From assembly GCA_938031175.1 (NCBI GenBank), contig CALHGZ010000001.1, positions 186,001-250,000 of the forward strand: DNA of 64,000 bases, read 5' to 3'. A program made the position numbers and the translations under genes. Positions within the stretch are counted from its first letter, which is position 1, and every line of letters begins with the position of its first letter. The DNA comes from Candidatus Kapaibacterium sp. (GTDB taxonomy: Bacteria > Bacteroidota > Ignavibacteria > Kapaibacteriales > UBA2268). Shown here one piece after another: positions 48,971 through 57,265 of this stretch. The notes under the pieces are model-generated. The model worked only from the letters and a program-made list of their open reading frames with translations, did not search any database and had not been told where the DNA came from.

Positions 48971-51349
48971 TTATGATTGGGTTTGTTCAATTTCAGTTAA
49001 AAATTTAAAATCTTTTATACCATTTTGGTGTTTTGCCAAAATGAAATGGAATTTTGAGCCTATTCCATATTCACTTTCAGCCCAGATTTTCCCGCCGTTT
49101 TTTTCAATAAATTCTTTGCATAAAATAAGACCAAGTCCAGTACCTTTTTCTCGCATGGTTCCTTGTGTTGTAAATTGAACATCTATTCGGAACAGTTTTT
49201 TCAAATCCTCTTCTTTAATGCCTATGCCGTTATCTTCGATAATTACTTCAATGTATTGCAGGGATTCTTTTGCATAAATGTTTATTTCACCTCCTTCATT
49301 AGAAAATTTGACAGCGTTTGTCAATATATTTCTAAAAACACTGGAAATCATATTTAAATCCGCATAAACAATGGTTTTAGGAAGAATATTCTGATTTATT
49401 TTAATATTTTTTCTTGATGCATTTGAATATAAAAGATTGACATTATTGTCGGCAATATATGATAAATCAATGTAATCAGGATTGAATTCAATAGCACCAC
49501 TCTGAGTTCTTGCCCATTGCAAAAGATTTTCTAATAATTCAGACAGGTAATTTGAAGATTTATGTAGTTTATAGAAACTGTCTTCCAGCTTACTTTTACT
49601 CATTCTATGGTAATTGTTTGCTAATGTATAAGATGATAAAATCATAGCTTGTAGTGGATTTTTAAGGTCGTGGGCAATAATAGAAAAAAATTTATCTTTC
49701 GTTGCCAACGCTTCACGTAATTTTTCCTGACTATTTAAGAGTTCGATATTTATCTTTTGTAACTCTTCTTTTTGCTGTGTGATTAGTCTGTTTTTTTCAG
49801 CTAAATCGAGATTGGCTTTACGAATCATCTCATTTTTTTGGGTCAGCAATTTATTCGCTTTCTTTTTAGTCAAATATCTGTTAAATAAGATTACTGCTAT
49901 AATTAGAATCAGAGCTAATATTGAAATAAAGTATTTTGTTTGTTGCTCTTTTTCTCTTTTTAGAATTTGATTTTCTTTTTCTTTTTTTTCGGTTTCGTAT
50001 CTTATTTCGATAGCAGAGATTTGATTTCTAATCTCTTCGCTTGCGATTGAATCTTTAATGGATGTATATAATTTGTGATAGTTTAATGCATTTTTGTAAT
50101 TACCCATTGATTCGTAAATTTCATATAGTAGACTATAACTATCCAGCATATATTTTCTGTTATTTTTTTCGTAAGCTGCATCGAGGGCTTTTTTGGCATA
50201 TTGATAAGCTTTTTCGTAATCCCCCATTTTATAATAAATAATACCGATATTATTAAGCCTATTACTCAATTGATCTGTATCGGTTGAAATCTCTTTTATT
50301 TCGAGGGATTTTAAAGAATAATGAAGTGCTAGCTTATAGTCCTGCATCTCTGCATATACTTGTCCGATGTTGTTGTAAAGGAGACCAATTCCACGCATAT
50401 CCCCTAATTCCATTGCATTTTTCAGAGATGAACTATAGCTATCCAGAGCTTTTGGAAAATCTTTTTTTTCAAAATATACATTACCTATATTATTTAAAGT
50501 TTTAGCAACTAATTTTTTATCATTCAAATTGTAGCTAATTTTTAATGCCTTTTCGAGATACTCAAGGGCTTTATCATAATTATTTAAAGCAAAATATACA
50601 TTACCGATTTTATTGAGAATATTTGAAATTTGTAATGTGTTTTTTTGCTCTTCATAGATTTTTAAAGCTTCTAATGAATATTCTATAACTTTATCATAAT
50701 CTCCAAGCGTACGATAAATGAATATTAAGTCATTAAAGGTGTTTAGAATTTTATCATTATCATTTATTTTTATGTAAATTGATTTTGCTTTCTGATAATA
50801 ATATATTGAGTTGTTATAATCATATAATAAGGAATAAAGTAAACCAAGATTAAAATAAGTATCAGCTATTTTTTTATCATCGCTAATTTTTTCTGCTAAG
50901 ACTAGATTATCTGTTAAAATTTTAATTGCATCATTGTATTTGTTAATATGCATGTAAGAAGTAGCGATATTATTCCTTGTTTTGAATATCCCTTCCTTGT
51001 CATTGATTTCAGAATAGATTTGATTGGATTTTTGATAAAAATCAATTGCTTTTTCTGAATCGTTTTTATAATCAAAATATAAGCCCATTAAATTTAATGA
51101 TTTAGCTTGTTCTTTTTTGTTGTTATATTTTTTTGCCAAACTTAATGCTTTGGTGGCGTATTCATAGCTTTTATCTAGTGATTTATCAATGTATTTTTCA
51201 GCAATCAGATTTAAAATTTCAAGGCTATTTTTCTCATCTTTTGTTTTTAGAATTTTTAACAAGCTATCAATATTCGATTGTGCATATAATGGAAAAAGGA
51301 TTATTAATAGAATGATAGATAGAAGCAGTATTTTATATAGTTTTTGCAT
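48971..51349 (-). CDS. Tetratricopeptide-repeat sensor histidine kinase
   Basis: The 792-residue protein has a signal peptide (about 1-23), roughly nine to ten tetratricopeptide repeats (about 50-430; for example 'NNIGNVYFEKKDFPKALDSYSSSLK'), a single membrane segment at about 470-490 (FISILALILIIAVILF), a coiled coil, and a kinase core with His560 in IIAHDLKNPL, N-box 'ILTNAVKFSNEGG', G1 DNGIGI and G2 GTGLGL. The repeats are probably periplasmic, as in many Bacteroidota kinases that sense a peptide, protein or glycan, and the catalytic part is cytosolic. It has no receiver domain. Upstream and divergent lies the island of tandem small genes, so it may sense a product of that island, which is inference. 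Confidence 0.93.
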   Translation of the reverse strand: MQKLYKILLLSIILLIILFPLYAQSNIDSLLKILKTKDEKNSLEILNLIAEKYIDKSLDKSYEYATKALSLAKKYNNKKEQAKSLNLMGLYFDYKNDSEKAIDFYQKSNQIYSEINDKEGIFKTRNNIATSYMHINKYNDAIKILTDNLVLAEKISDDKKIADTYFNLGLLYSLLYDYNNSIYYYQKAKSIYIKINDNDKILNTFNDLIFIYRTLGDYDKVIEYSLEALKIYEEQKNTLQISNILNKIGNVYFALNNYDKALEYLEKALKISYNLNDKKLVAKTLNNIGNVYFEKKDFPKALDSYSSSLKNAMELGDMRGIGLLYNNIGQVYAEMQDYKLALHYSLKSLEIKEISTDTDQLSNRLNNIGIIYYKMGDYEKAYQYAKKALDAAYEKNNRKYMLDSYSLLYEIYESMGNYKNALNYHKLYTSIKDSIASEEIRNQISAIEIRYETEKKEKENQILKREKEQQTKYFISILALILIIAVILFNRYLTKKKANKLLTQKNEMIRKANLDLAEKNRLITQQKEELQKINIELLNSQEKLREALATKDKFFSIIAHDLKNPLQAMILSSYTLANNYHRMSKSKLEDSFYKLHKSSNYLSELLENLLQWARTQSGAIEFNPDYIDLSYIADNNVNLLYSNASRKNIKINQNILPKTIVYADLNMISSVFRNILTNAVKFSNEGGEINIYAKESLQYIEVIIEDNGIGIKEEDLKKLFRIDVQFTTQGTMREKGTGLGLILCKEFIEKNGGKIWAESEYGIGSKFHFILAKHQNGIKDFKFLTEIEQTQS

Positions 51350-51815
51350 TTAAATCAAAAATTTTTAATCATATATCTTATAATTTAGAATAAAATCAAA
51401 ATTTGTTCCAAAAATAATAAAAAAAAAATTTGCATTTTAAATTTCTTTTTATTATGTTTGTTGGTAATCGATTAAAAAAAATTAATAATTCTAAAATTTG
51501 TAATTATATATTAATTATCGATTAATATAACTTTAAACTGAGAGATAACAAAATTTAATTGAAAGTGATGTTCTTTTAAAATATGCAAAAGGAAAAATAT
51601 TATTGTTTGTTAAGATTTTTGATTAAAATTTAATTTAACTAAAATTTTACTCAAAAATAGTACAAAAGATTTTTATATAAAAAAATTTGCTTTTTTAAAT
51701 ATTATTATTTAAATTACAAGTTTTTTTTATTTATTTTTCAATTTGAAATTTTAGAAATTTTTATATGTATTTATAAGTCTTAAATCTATTTTTTAATTAA
51801 TAACAGGAGGTTACA
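51350..51815. other. AT-rich intergenic region between the TPR kinase and the small genes
   Basis: These 466 bases are extremely A+T-rich and hold no credible coding frame. They must contain the promoters of the divergent kinase and the small genes, but I find no TTG-N19..21-TAnnTTTG match for the small genes. The 15-mer ATGTTCTTTTAAAAT at 51568-51582 recurs before the second small gene. AAAATTTTACTCAAAA at 51641-51656 recurs at 60514-60529. Confidence 0.6.
51568..51582 (+). repeat. Copy 1 of a 15-base repeat
   Basis: ATGTTCTTTTAAAAT, identical to 52062-52076. This copy is 233 bases before the ATG of the first small gene. It might be an operator or the remains of a duplication that created the tandem small genes. 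Confidence 0.4.
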
Positions 51816-52061
51816 ATGGAAATTTTAATCGCAATATTATGGTACCTGCAGATAATGTTTGTGGGTGTAACTTACACAGTTGAAGAAGTCGATATGATGA
51901 TTATCACAAATCAGCCAGTAATTGAGCAAGTTCAAAATGATCAGCAGTTGTTGAATACAATTTTAGATAATTTCAACAGCAATTATACAATTACAATCGA
52001 AAATGGTGCAGTAGATATTTGGGACGATCCTCCACCTTCAAAACCAATTAAAATGAAATAA
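51816..52061 (+). CDS. Small WDD-motif protein 1, 81 residues
   Basis: I do not recognise this protein. It starts with a hydrophobic segment MEILIAILWYLQIMFVG, then a polar, Asn/Gln/Glu-rich middle, and ends in VDIWDDPPPSKPIKMK. The ATG follows a near-perfect AGGAGG with 5-6 bases between, so it is very likely translated. The N-terminus could be a single membrane anchor or an export signal; there is no lipobox Cys. The start (IAILWY) and the WDD end recur in the next gene, so both belong to one family. Terminator 52538-52569 closes the unit. Confidence 0.7.
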   Translation: MEILIAILWYLQIMFVGVTYTVEEVDMMIITNQPVIEQVQNDQQLLNTILDNFNSNYTITIENGAVDIWDDPPPSKPIKMK

Positions 52062-52076
52062 ATGTTCTTTTAAAAT
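52062..52076 (+). repeat. Copy 2 of the 15-base repeat
   Basis: ATGTTCTTTTAAAAT, immediately after the stop of small gene 1 and 32 bases before the ATG of small gene 2. See copy 1 at 51568-51582. Confidence 0.4.
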
Positions 52077-52108
52077 GAATTTGTAAAACATAATTTAGGA
52101 GAAAAAAA

Positions 52109-52303
52109 ATGCAACTATTCATAGCAATACTTTGGTACATATTGGTTTTCCTTGCTGGACCTGAAATTCTTGACAGTAAAAAAGAAGTTACTCAGCAAGA
52201 TGCAAAACCAAAAATGGAAGCAATTAAGAAAGTTGATTTATCGCACAAACAAAGCAGAGTCATTGTTTGGGATGATGATGAGACATCATCACATCTTAAA
52301 TAA
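52109..52303 (+). CDS. Small WDD-motif protein 2, 64 residues
   Basis: Not recognised from any family. It starts with a hydrophobic segment MQLFIAILWYILVFLAG that matches protein 1 at IAILWY and the following Gly, has a charged Lys/Asp/Glu middle, and ends with VIVWDDDETSSHLK. AGGAGA precedes the ATG by 7-8 bases. It lies 47 bases after protein 1 in the same direction, so the genes are probably co-transcribed. The N-terminal and C-terminal motifs are conserved between the two while the middle is not, which suggests that the ends are functional. Confidence 0.68.
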   Translation: MQLFIAILWYILVFLAGPEILDSKKEVTQQDAKPKMEAIKKVDLSHKQSRVIVWDDDETSSHLK

Positions 52304-52537: not shown

Positions 52538-52569
52538 ACTCAGCTCAATATAAAGAGTTGAGTTTTTTA
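52538..52569 (+). terminator. Intrinsic terminator of the small-gene unit
   Basis: ACTCAGCTC (52538-52546) pairs with GAGTTGAGT (52555-52563) over 9 bp with one G-U pair and an 8-base loop, followed by a T run to 52568. It is a good terminator for plus-strand transcription and lies 235 bases after small gene 2. I see no gene between, so either the transcript has a long 3' end or a small RNA lies there. Confidence 0.7.
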
Positions 52570-52712: not shown

Positions 52713-52746
52713 TGAAAAAGCTGATGAGTTTTTATCTCATCAGCTT
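52713..52746 (-). terminator. Terminator of the OmpA-like operon
   Basis: AAGCTGATGAG (52718-52728) and CTCATCAGCTT (52736-52746) form a perfect 11-bp stem with a 7-base loop. Read on the minus strand the stem ends in a run of T, as expected for the transcript of the OmpA-like gene that stops 27 bases before. Plus-strand function is less likely since no clear T run follows. Confidence 0.78.
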
Positions 52747-52772: not shown

Positions 52773-54806
52773 TTATTCTTCAATCGGTGTTTCAATGATT
52801 ATATCTACTCGTCTACTGTAAAATCTACCTTCGGGTAATTCATTGTTATATATCAGGTATTTCTCCCCATAGCCGTTTATATCGGTATTTGAGAATTTCA
52901 GATAATCATCTACGGCTTTCGCCCTCTGAAAGGATAAGCGTTGATTATAATCCTCAGGTCCCATTCTATCGGTGTGGCCCAAAATCTTAACAGAAGCATT
53001 AGGTTTTAAAGACTTTTTAATTAATTCAGCCATTTTGGCATTATAAAAACTGAGTTTTGATTCATCATAAGAGAATAGAATCAAACTATAGCGATCAATA
53101 TACTTATCTTTTATTCTTTCAGTTCTTTTCTTTTGCACCGTTACTAATTCGACAGGTATTGAGCCAACATCGGTTTCGTATTTTTGATTTTGATTATCGG
53201 TAATATTCAATTTGTAATTTAATAAATCACTTGTGCGAGGAATATTGTTTTGTTCACTATCTAAGTGCCAATCAACAATTTGAGGTAAATCGGTAGTACC
53301 AGAAAATGTTTGCAAAGTTTTGCCTTTTTGAAATGCAATGAGTTGCCAATTTTTAATACCAGCTTCGGCATTAATATTATTTCTGAATCTTACGGTTGGT
53401 GGATTAGTTACTCTAAATGTGTCATTTGCGAAAACCGGTGCGATAATTTCCCATTTATTTGAAGTGATTTCGACTCTTCTATTTTCCTGAATACCTTCAG
53501 GATCCCGAATGTTAGTTGGTTCCTGAGGTAAATTTCTTTTACCAAGAATCATTCGGTCCGAAGAAATTCCCCAAACATCTCTGAGATAATTTCGAACATT
53601 TTCAGCTCTTTTTTCGGAGAGAGCTAAATTTCCTTTTTCGAGTCCAGTGTCTGAATTACATCCATCAATGGCAATCTTTGCATCAGGATGCTCTTGCATT
53701 CTTTTGCCAATGATATTAAGCACGTGATAATAAGTTTCGATATTATTAAGGTAAAAAGTTTGGTCAATTGAGAATTTTTTAGTTTCATCTGAACTTAATA
53801 GTTTATAACGATTTGGAATTTCGGCTGAATTATCGTCAAAGAAAATGTATGTTAATAGTGGTTTTACATTTGTAGAGAGATATTCCTCAACTTTCATTTT
53901 TATAATTTGAGACTCATTTTCCTTATCGTCGATTGCTGATGCTAAGATTGAGGCGAAAAGTATTGGTTTAGGTGGTACTGGTTTAGCGGGTTCCGGAATG
54001 GGCATATATTTAATGGATGCACCTAAACGAATAGTATTTGTTTTCCAGTCGAAATCTGATACATCAACAATATTTGTCAGCATATAATTGTAAAATATTT
54101 CTGGTGCAATTATCCATTCTCCAGAACTAATGATAGGTATTTCATAACTTAGACCACCAATCAAGGAAGCTTTGAAGGTGGATAAATTGGCAATCTCAAA
54201 ATCAGGAAAAACTAATCTTTGCCTTGTATTGTTTTCATAAGCACCAGTTTCGGGTTTAAGGATTGATTCAATATGGGAATATGTTTTTGAAATATTTAAT
54301 ACACCAAAAGTGGCACCTAAATGAATAAAGAAATTGTCAAAAAGACGATAATTTAACATTGGCTCTAAACCAATAAAGCTAATTTTGGAATCCAATGAAT
54401 GTTCAAAAATTCCATTTGTTTCGATATTTCGCTGGTAATCATATACTGTTTCGGATTCCTCTGCTTTAAGTTTTCCATCGATAGAATAATAGCCACCTCT
54501 GATAGCAATTAGGAGATTTTTTATAACAGGGTATTCAAATAATAATCCTACAGAAAACCCAATACCAGAGCCTTCCTCAAATTTTGGGCAACAGCTTGGA
54601 AATGGAAGTTGCATACCAGTAAAGTTAGCATTATGTTGATTCAGATTTAAATTTCCGTAAAGACCGTAACGTGGCATATCATTTTGGATTTCTTCTGGCT
54701 TGAGTGGATTGGCTTTTTGGCTTAAAGCAAAATTAAAGGATATTAATGCAGTCAAAATATACAAAAAGCAATGTAATAGTCGATTTATTAAACTCGTAAT
54801 TCTCAT
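52773..54806 (-). CDS. Outer-membrane OmpA-family protein with two OmpA-like domains
   Basis: The 677-residue protein has a signal peptide ending near ALSQ, a beta-barrel-like region (about 45-285; 'GIGFSVGLLFEYPVIKNLLIAIRGGYYS'), a first OmpA-like domain at about 345-460 ('IAIDGCNSDTGLEKGNLALSEKRAENVRNYL', 'ENRRVEI'), an Ig-like middle, and a second OmpA-like domain at about 575-677 ('VKILGHTDRMGPEDYNQRLSFQRAKAVDDYL', 'SRRVDIII'). OmpA-like domains bind peptidoglycan. In the first the usual GHTD is changed to DGCNSD. It is translationally coupled (ATGA overlap) to the T9SS-type protein before it, so the two may form a surface pair. Confidence 0.88.
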   Translation of the reverse strand: MRITSLINRLLHCFLYILTALISFNFALSQKANPLKPEEIQNDMPRYGLYGNLNLNQHNANFTGMQLPFPSCCPKFEEGSGIGFSVGLLFEYPVIKNLLIAIRGGYYSIDGKLKAEESETVYDYQRNIETNGIFEHSLDSKISFIGLEPMLNYRLFDNFFIHLGATFGVLNISKTYSHIESILKPETGAYENNTRQRLVFPDFEIANLSTFKASLIGGLSYEIPIISSGEWIIAPEIFYNYMLTNIVDVSDFDWKTNTIRLGASIKYMPIPEPAKPVPPKPILFASILASAIDDKENESQIIKMKVEEYLSTNVKPLLTYIFFDDNSAEIPNRYKLLSSDETKKFSIDQTFYLNNIETYYHVLNIIGKRMQEHPDAKIAIDGCNSDTGLEKGNLALSEKRAENVRNYLRDVWGISSDRMILGKRNLPQEPTNIRDPEGIQENRRVEITSNKWEIIAPVFANDTFRVTNPPTVRFRNNINAEAGIKNWQLIAFQKGKTLQTFSGTTDLPQIVDWHLDSEQNNIPRTSDLLNYKLNITDNQNQKYETDVGSIPVELVTVQKKRTERIKDKYIDRYSLILFSYDESKLSFYNAKMAELIKKSLKPNASVKILGHTDRMGPEDYNQRLSFQRAKAVDDYLKFSNTDINGYGEKYLIYNNELPEGRFYSRRVDIIIETPIEE

Positions 54807-57265
54807 CTTACCACCTCTAAGATAGTTGTCAATGCCTCAAAATCAGTAGTTAAAACTAATATATAGATTCCCGTGTTAAGATAACGTAAATCGAGATTTC
54901 TTGATATTGTACTTTTTTCGGATATTATATCATTCCAGGTGTAAATAACATTACCGAGTGTATTAATCAAACTAATTTTTAAATTAGTTTGATATGGTAT
55001 ATTAGCTAAGATGTTGGTATTATCATTTGCTGGATTAGGATATATAATTACTCCAATATTACCAGAGCCTTCAGTGAATAGTCTTGTATTTCCTCCTTCT
55101 TTGCATAGTCCATCAAGAGCAAATATAGAATCTATTAATGAAACATTAGCAGCACAATCCGTCCATTCAAAACTTATAAACTGAATTTTAGTTTGCTCGG
55201 CATTTCCAAGAGTTGCAAGGAATTGCAGAGTGAATAATATACTATCATTAGCCTTACGTGTACCATTGATTGTTATTATTCTTTCATTTCCAATTATTGT
55301 TCCATTAGGAGTATTAGCTTTGGGAACAAGTAGAGATTTATTATAACTGATTGTGGTTGTATAATTAAATACCTTGCAAAAGTCCAAATCATTTGATGCC
55401 TTTATATATAGAGGTATTGATACGCTATCGCCTGGTTTTGCCCGAATTATAGTTTCAGGCATAGCAATTATAGAATTTGGATAAATTACAGTTATAGGTA
55501 CAGGAGGTGAAGTATTTTTGCATCCTTTGTCATCGGTAACTAAGACTGTATAATTTCCACTTTCTTTGACTGTAATTTTCTGAGTAGTTTCACCTGTTGA
55601 CCATAAATAGTTGACATATGGACCACCAGCGTCTAAGATTAGTGAGTCGCAGTTGCAAAAGGTGGTAGGACCTAAAGGAGTAATAACAGGTTTTGGTAAT
55701 GGGTTAACAATAACAGTAATTGAATCAATAGCTTTGCAAGATTTAGAATCAGAAACATTGCAATAATAAGTAGTAGTGGTTTTGGGTGTAACCTGAACCA
55801 TAGGCTTGTCATTGTCTATTAGCCCTTGAGCAGGCGTCCAATTATAATTATAGGGTGGAGTACCATTTTGTGCTAAATTTCCAATGACAACTGTGTCTCC
55901 GTAACAAATCTCAATTTGATTTCCAATATCTATTGTTGGTAAAGGATTGACTACAACACGAATTGAAGCAGTACTACTACAGCCATTATCATCTGTTACA
56001 TTAAGCGTATATTCGGTAGTTGCATTTGGATTAGCTATTGGATTCTGTATATTTATAGCAGATAAACCACTTGCAGGAGACCACTGAAACTTGTATGGTG
56101 GCTTGCCTGAGGATATAGCCGGGGTTAATTGAATAGCTTCACCTCTACATATTTCAATAGTATTTGTCATTGTTACAATTGGTAACGGATAAACAGTAAC
56201 AAGTATGGTATCGAGACCAAATTGACAGCCGTCAGCTGTGGTTCCTTTGACAATATATCGTGTAGTAGAAGTAGGATTAACAGTCGGAGATTTTTGATTC
56301 GATGAAAATCCGGCAGGAATTGATGACCATTCATAAGTTGCAGCTCCTTCAGCATTCAGGATAACAGGTTTACCACTACAAACACTGCTAATATTGCTAG
56401 TTGCAGTAACATTGATTTGATCTGGACAGGAACGGCAGCTTATTGTTTGTGTATATAAGCCTGCCATTAATACTGAAAAGCAATCTGTATTAGTCCTAAG
56501 GGTATAAGTATAATTTGTTTGATTCTGTGTTACTGAAGTATTGAATACTACAAAATTCCAAAATTGAGCTGATACATTTATAGGTGTACCATTAAATTCA
56601 AAAGGTACAAGACCATTTGGTGGATTTGCGTTTTCCTGTAAATCTGCTACGAGTATAAATGCCTCACCAAAAGTGGAGTTAGCACAAAAATTTTGGTTCG
56701 ATTTGGTATGAGTGTAAGTTATTCCTTTATCAGTAGTAAATAAACCGTCTTCAATGTGTAAACGGCCAAGATAATTTGCTTGTAAATCTCGGTAAATGAC
56801 TAATAAAGTTATACCATCTACTTCCCAGTTATCATTATCGACATCAAATGAATAATTACCATTTTCGGTGATTACTGAAGTTACATCAACCCTAAAATTA
56901 CGTGTACCAATTTCCTCCCAGCATTTTTTCCCAGCTTGCCCAGCAATAATTGAATTTAATACAACTGTTTGCTGATTTGGCTTGACTACAGTTAATTTCG
57001 GATTAGTAGGAGAATTTGCTCTATAAGATACACCCCACCAAACAAATGCTTTCTCAACTTTTTTGCAGGTACTTAATTCAGAAATATTTATAGTAATTGG
57101 GGTTGGATTGCCTGGTGGAGTTGCCATTCTATTAGTGATTTTGAATGATTTATGGAAATAATTCAATCCGCATTTTTCCTGATTGTAAACAACATTGTTT
57201 AATGAAGCTAAAACATTGAATTCAAAAAGGAAAATTAATAGGAAAATAGGTTTGATTAATTTCAT
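54803..57265 (-). CDS. Secreted repeat protein with T9SS type A sorting domain
   Basis: The 820-residue protein has a signal peptide to about residue 20, an N-terminal domain (about 30-275) rich in aromatic residues with 'KAFVWWGVSYRA', then three to four Ig/PKD-like repeats (about 280-590; each with a 'SCxG/CRGE/CYGD' opening, 'PPYKFQWSPASGL' and 'TTxYxxxVTDxxGC' ending), a cohesin-like region (about 600-715), and a C-terminal T9SS type A domain ('IIYPNPANDNTNI' ... 'LNTGIYILVL', about 738-820). It is probably exported by T9SS and displayed on the surface, perhaps as an adhesin or gliding-type protein. GGAG precedes the ATG. It is followed in the operon by the OmpA-like gene. Confidence 0.87.
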   Translation of the reverse strand: MKLIKPIFLLIFLFEFNVLASLNNVVYNQEKCGLNYFHKSFKITNRMATPPGNPTPITINISELSTCKKVEKAFVWWGVSYRANSPTNPKLTVVKPNQQTVVLNSIIAGQAGKKCWEEIGTRNFRVDVTSVITENGNYSFDVDNDNWEVDGITLLVIYRDLQANYLGRLHIEDGLFTTDKGITYTHTKSNQNFCANSTFGEAFILVADLQENANPPNGLVPFEFNGTPINVSAQFWNFVVFNTSVTQNQTNYTYTLRTNTDCFSVLMAGLYTQTISCRSCPDQINVTATSNISSVCSGKPVILNAEGAATYEWSSIPAGFSSNQKSPTVNPTSTTRYIVKGTTADGCQFGLDTILVTVYPLPIVTMTNTIEICRGEAIQLTPAISSGKPPYKFQWSPASGLSAINIQNPIANPNATTEYTLNVTDDNGCSSTASIRVVVNPLPTIDIGNQIEICYGDTVVIGNLAQNGTPPYNYNWTPAQGLIDNDKPMVQVTPKTTTTYYCNVSDSKSCKAIDSITVIVNPLPKPVITPLGPTTFCNCDSLILDAGGPYVNYLWSTGETTQKITVKESGNYTVLVTDDKGCKNTSPPVPITVIYPNSIIAMPETIIRAKPGDSVSIPLYIKASNDLDFCKVFNYTTTISYNKSLLVPKANTPNGTIIGNERIITINGTRKANDSILFTLQFLATLGNAEQTKIQFISFEWTDCAANVSLIDSIFALDGLCKEGGNTRLFTEGSGNIGVIIYPNPANDNTNILANIPYQTNLKISLINTLGNVIYTWNDIISEKSTISRNLDLRYLNTGIYILVLTTDFEALTTILEVVR

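Follow-up and report, generated by a model that had tools for sequence, protein, structure and literature searches.

Several described systems come close to the locus analysed here. Peptide-sensing two-component systems such as ComD, AgrC and ComP are one case. In kinesin light chain (KLC), W-acidic motifs bind to the concave surface of the TPRs (PMC6224480). In the RRNPPA systems (Rap-Phr, NprR-NprX, AimR-AimP) small propeptides carry a basic n-region and a hydrophobic, Sec-type export signal, and both multi-copy peptide genes and orphan receptors are known (PMC9765709). Two surveys of RRNPP-type peptide signalling cover the Firmicutes and their mobile elements only (PMC9765709, PMC10075063).

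The present locus, from a relative of the Bacteroidota, resembles the RRNPPA systems in that genes for a small protein and for a TPR protein adjoin each other, and differs from them in the sequences of both. A small-protein/TPR-sensor system of this kind was not found described in a search of the literature that covered few subscription journals.

Two small genes divergent to a histidine kinase

The window, by which we mean the whole stretch of 64,000 nucleotides that was analysed, contains the following features.

48971..51349, minus strand: partner histidine kinase, with an N-terminal signal, predicted periplasmic TPRs, one TM helix (about 470-490), HisKA and HATPase
51350..51815, no strand: divergent intergenic region between the kinase and ORF A, 466 bp, AT-rich
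51552..51582, plus strand: 31-nt element ending TGTTCTTTTAAAAT, upstream of ORF A
51805..51810, plus strand: ribosome-binding site AGGAGG of ORF A, from the sequence (AGGAGG-TTACA-ATG)
51816..52061, plus strand: ORF A, 81 aa, of the MExLIAILxYLG...TYTxxEI...NQxxIxxVxxD family, with the tail IWDDPPPSKPIKMK
52046-52076: second copy of the 31-nt element (84%), overlapping the end of ORF A and upstream of ORF B
52096..52102 (approximate), plus strand: ribosome-binding site TAGGAGA of ORF B, from the sequence (TTTAGGAGAAAAAAA-ATG)
52109..52303, plus strand: ORF B, 64 aa, a B-type paralogue with an IAILWY head, a divergent middle and the tail VWDDDETSSHLK
52538..52563, plus strand: terminator-like hairpin with a T-run, 235 bp past ORF B

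ORFs A and B are real coding genes. The preliminary description had proposed two adjacent genes with good ribosome-binding sites, sharing the motifs IAILWY and WDD, and this holds throughout: both genes and both sites are present, IAILWY occupies residues 5-10 of each protein, and WDD is found at residues 69-71 of A and 54-56 of B. A common 6-mer arose in only 4 of 5000 shuffles in which the composition of head and tail was preserved, and the shared 6-mer of A and B therefore exceeds chance. Their homology is further backed by relatives (G035, G020, G103 and G006) in which B-type genes lie beside A-type genes. Neither protein has a match in Pfam, NCBIfam or PHROGs, so that the earlier statement that no known family fits was right, and a search of the host's own genome for paralogues gave no second A/B locus.

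The exact 14-mer TGTTCTTTTAAAAT occurs within the window only at 51569-51582 and at 52063-52076, the second copy falling just past the stop codon of A. It is possible that this sequence, or the 31-nt repeat that it ends, is a shared promoter or operator of A and B. The TGTTCTTTTAAAAT repeat was not enriched once mismatches were permitted, and upstream of the family neither a sigma-70 nor a Bacteroidota promoter signature was enriched. A strong terminator had also been claimed to follow the pair. Terminator-like hairpins do exist, a second one lying at 52718-52746, but they are at least 235 bp beyond B and are about as frequent as in shuffled sequence (3 versus 1.7 expected). Beside the pair we saw neither a response regulator nor a processing protease, and no exporter. 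In the next operon (window 52773-57265) are genes for an outer membrane protein of the OmpA family and for an Ig-like protein of 820 aa that has the sorting tail of type IX secretion.

The TPR histidine kinase reported as divergent to the pair is likewise real; it has 792 aa and begins 466 bp from A. With a signal peptide, TPRs, a TM helix, a HisKA domain with an intact H-box and HATPase_c it has the make-up of a TPR sensor kinase, and its N- and G-boxes are also intact. Its TPRs are nearest in sequence to those of LGN, with KLC and RapH among the matches. Kinase TPRs match RNPP_C only as generic TPR. By hydropathy, the window kinase and all ten other kinases examined have a hydrophobic segment at the N-terminus and a single TM helix, and for this reason we place the TPRs in the periplasm. 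TPR, HisKA and HATPase were found together in seven of the eight relatives' kinases that were scanned; one, that of locus L156, has HisKA and HATPase but no detectable TPRs. For many orphan TPR histidine kinases of the Bacteroidota we generally know of no signal.

An undescribed family of small proteins

A and B are members of an unnamed, previously undescribed protein family. With ORF A as query, homologues turned up in further genera of the window's family, the best with E 8.8e-19 and 47% identity, as well as in other families of the host's order; ORF B as sole query gave noise only, and the family signal resides in A. Profile searches gave about 95 copies in 41 of the 123 genomes of the order, with up to 13 in one genome (G042); beyond the order, one further family of the class was the only place where such genes were seen. 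The dN/dS values of related small genes are 0.06-0.39, the differences being mostly synonymous, which indicates that the genes are translated and under purifying selection. Shine-Dalgarno motifs precede 21 of 85 members versus 2% of control stretches. Small hydrophobic-head genes divergent to U proteins (the cytoplasmic TPR proteins described below) occur also in a Chitinophagales bin (PL23a_bin.6; L208 and L215, tails NIVVIDDIEY and NIVVLDEIVEKY); belonging to a different class, they are possible distant members of the family or analogues.

The best-conserved part of the 85 members, which are 52-108 aa long, is formed by the first 12 residues, MExLIAILxYLG, with 2.5-3.5 bits at most positions. 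Position 2 is D or E in 63 of them, only two have K or R within the first 16 residues, and what follows the head is net acidic in all 85. A conserved core, TYTxxEI...NQxxIxxVxxD, follows the head, and it is head and core that define the family, not WDD. The WDD end had been put forward as a recognition site. W-acidic tails do recur in the window's family, where they are typical and where A, B and most other members have them, but the motif is not general: it is missing in genus g25 of that same family and in most other members, and only 19 of 85 fit even a loose pattern. A best-conserved N-terminus is odd for a mere signal or for a C-terminal pheromone; the hydrophobic head, which lacks the basic residues usual in a signal peptide, may itself be functional.

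Other genera of the window's family have an array at this locus, in which the kinase is followed by one or several near-identical A genes and then by a B gene; genus g21 has a further B-like gene between the kinase and the A genes. Contig breaks often fall within the array, and in G006 both broken ends bear identical A DNA. The C-terminal ends of A and B are alike within a genome (-PILD/-IIID in g21, -KMK/-HLK in the window, -KIKR/-KLK in G006) and differ between genomes, in the few genomes available, a pattern that would suit a single partner reading both tails.

Other genes accompany the small genes elsewhere. At seven loci of family f2 (L124, L128, L134, L135, L138, L141 and L144) a co-directional gene lies 19-58 bp behind the small gene and mostly encodes a secreted, Cys-containing protein; the small gene may start an operon there. 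A protein of about 118 aa (MLxxxPVxNCMHFxxPxxLxxWxxYDVPGVVGVL; loci L145, L155, L158, L159, L166, L169, L171 and L184) is found repeatedly behind small genes with tails ending in IDRxED, and also near some U genes with no detected small gene.

The common partner is a TPR protein

A TPR sensor adjoins the small gene in 78 of the 78 loci with enough flanking sequence, and in 76 of these the two genes are divergent. The partners are 12 divergent kinases, including that of the window, one same-strand kinase, 64 divergent members of a second protein family, here called U, and one same-strand U. Eight loci without a partner were left out of this count, all of which reach a contig edge within 700 bp. 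The preliminary description had suggested a peptide-kinase signalling unit as one possibility. Of this, the link to a TPR kinase stands for the window's family, in which a kinase lies beside the small gene in 13 of 13 loci with enough flank (12 divergent), but outside it the partner is a cytoplasmic TPR protein and not a kinase. The common denominator of the partners is thus a TPR protein. The window's genome has about 18 other TPR_12 proteins, none of which has an A/B-type neighbour, as follows from there being a single A/B locus.

U proteins have about 500 aa, carry neither signal nor TM helix and are predicted to be cytoplasmic. Single members barely reach the Pfam TPR models, and the U profile matches consensus TPR chains with E 6e-41. 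The AlphaFold model of U is all-helical (pLDDT 86). When it was compared by VIA-align, Rap and Rap-Phr structures filled the first eight rows (Z 17.3-18.5), the best matches being 6t46 (Z 18.5, rmsd 3.6 over 273), 8rsu (18.5) and 4gyo (17.6), followed by LGN (16.8), NprR (16.6), MalT (16.0) and AimR (16.0). Rows that differ by no more than 1 Z count as ties and one TPR solenoid resembles another, and the modelled resemblance of U to Rap is accordingly supporting, not decisive. Foldseek alone gave only generic TPRs with weak E-values. Residues 1-90 of U are confidently predicted and had no PDB match over that part, with neither an HTH nor the three-helix bundle of Rap among the matches, and for 40 U proteins no RNPP_C or Rap family was among the matches listed.

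Outside the window's family, 24 of the 25 genomes that have the small gene also have U (Fisher p 2e-8). In G042, where 13 paralogous pairs occur, the distances among the small proteins correlate with those among the U proteins (r 0.45, p 0.0004), and for all 54 pairs, permuted within genomes only, the correlation has p 0.011; the trend was not seen in G050, which has 7 pairs, or in G044. For part of the family, and at least for one genome, small protein and U are therefore co-inherited, which is compatible with binding and is not proof of it, since such co-inheritance can stem from duplication of the whole unit.

U also occurs as an orphan, without a small gene. In many Saprospiraceae (among loci L202-L281, which are mostly of this group) a core, single-copy U lies beside cytidylate kinase (cmk) and a 73-aa protein with no small gene, from which it appears that U predates or outlives the pairing. 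In family f7 (L174-L178, L189 and L201) U has no small gene and follows, at 20-98 bp, a conserved membrane protein of 119-138 aa (MVRQRYEFDTxQNAIIAGL...), perhaps a different type of U partner. Among the named relatives are Candidatus Kapaibacterium sp. as well as Ignavibacteria bacterium UBA7675, both of the window's order; in viral contigs no U was confirmed. At one locus (L292 4596-8128, G543) a U/small-gene pair is directly upstream of contractile-injection-system-like genes, a possible regulated target. The neighbours there are presumably a DUF4255/Pvc16-type-like protein and a tail-sheath-like protein.

All 25 genomes that hold U-type pairs have OppA (PF00496), and it is missing in the window's genome and in the other kinase-type genomes. 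OppA tracks family boundaries, being found also in families other than f1 that have no U, and the pattern is consequently not an independent test. For U-type pairs we take it as no more than suggestive of re-import through Opp. POT/PTR2 peptide transporters showed no correspondence with the type of partner.

What the small protein may do

Our favoured interpretation, which we place midway between doubtful and probable, is that the small protein is a dedicated ligand of the TPR domain of its partner, acting in the manner of the RRNPP peptide/receptor pairs. The TPRs are proposed as the site of contact because they are all that the two unrelated partner architectures have in common. The small protein would begin with a short hydrophobic head that inserts into the membrane, continue with an acidic core about 45 residues long and end in a tail that differs by lineage. 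For the window's family the proposal is that the periplasmic TPRs of the kinase read the exported or membrane-held small protein and that kinase activity changes. In the other families the reader would be cytoplasmic U, acting on the small protein itself or on a fragment brought back in by the Opp permease, in the way that Phr is read by Rap. Periplasmic and cytoplasmic sensors can be reconciled in this way, since an exported peptide may be either sensed directly or re-imported. Binding, export, processing, import and signalling output of the small protein are steps that we infer.

The most serious rival is a cell-autonomous adaptor of the inner membrane, in which the small protein, anchored by its head, tethers, inhibits or stabilises the TPR partner, and there is neither secretion nor a signal between cells. 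The unusual conservation of the hydrophobic head favours it: MExLIAILxYLG is the most conserved part of the protein and is without the basic residues of a secretion signal, the remainder is acidic in every member, and the core, conserved across paralogues, resembles a folded domain more than it does a short pheromone. A single fixed topology, however, cannot suit both the periplasmic TPRs of the kinases and cytoplasmic U, and tandem identical copies better fit a dose-dependent signal. We consider an adaptor of this kind unlikely.

The dependence might also run the other way, the small protein being an output that the TPR sensor regulates (an effector, a bacteriocin-like or a stress peptide) while the sensor itself answers to another stimulus. 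A regulator divergent to its target is a common arrangement, small genes often head operons of varied genes, and U proteins without a small gene exist. On the other hand, in loci with enough flank small genes are never without a partner, which a simple target would not require any more than it would the covariation of small protein and U in G042, and U has no recognised DNA-binding domain; this seems to us quite improbable. A further candidate is a toxin-antitoxin pair or a polymorphic toxin with its immunity protein: the membrane toxin would be the small protein, and its antitoxin or immunity protein the TPR partner. The small size and hydrophobic nature of the protein, the adjoining partner and the multiple paralogues would fit, but the partner in one family is a signalling kinase, the tails are strongly acidic and not basic, and no toxin or antitoxin family was matched in Pfam, NCBIfam or PHROGs, so that we give it very little credence.

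The ligand interpretation can be extended, more tentatively and with our own leaning somewhat against it, to a peptide/TPR-receptor system of Gram-negative relatives of the Bacteroidota with an origin independent of RRNPP. One family of ligands would have had its receptor switched, from a cytoplasmic TPR protein with Opp in most families to a periplasmic TPR kinase in the family that lost OppA, with the non-standard hydrophobic head driving insertion or recognition. If true, the logic of peptide and TPR receptor would extend to Gram-negative bacteria, with up to 13 pairs per genome, and many orphan TPR histidine kinases of the Bacteroidota would gain a candidate ligand. Small proteins of this type are readily overlooked in annotation.

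Comparison with known systems

The likeness to kinesin light chain lies in the W-acidic tails (IWDD, VWDD, EEWED) encoded next to TPRs that are KLC- and LGN-like. The motif is missing, however, in many members of the small-protein family, including those of genus g25, and the WDD tails as W-acidic ligands of TPRs are no more than a resemblance and a lead. With ComD, AgrC and ComP the locus shares a small peptide gene beside a histidine kinase. Its sensor, in contrast, is a predicted periplasmic TPR array with one TM helix and not a polytopic membrane domain, and genes for a leader, processing, export or a response regulator do not adjoin it.

The differences from RRNPPA systems are several. 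The small proteins do not have a basic Sec signal (only 2 of 85 have K or R among residues 1-16), U is without sequence similarity to the RNPP and Rap families, and it is a larger receptor with an N-terminal domain for which no solved structure was matched. The hosts are relatives of the Bacteroidota and not Firmicutes, and the gene order here is divergent. The receptor is cytoplasmic in RRNPPA systems, whereas the partner in the window is a membrane kinase with TPRs placed in the periplasm. Judged by their sequences, with the basic Sec signal absent and no homology found, the pairs described here are not members of RRNPP. The likenesses are those of organization: adjoining genes for a small protein with a hydrophobic head and for a TPR receptor, a small protein of 52-108 aa beside its receptor in all 78 loci, where RRNPPA propeptides have 20-120 aa, and multiple paralogous pairs, tandem copies and orphan receptors. 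To these may be added a predicted U fold closest to that of Rap, at the level of fold only, and the presence of Opp in the genomes with U-type pairs.
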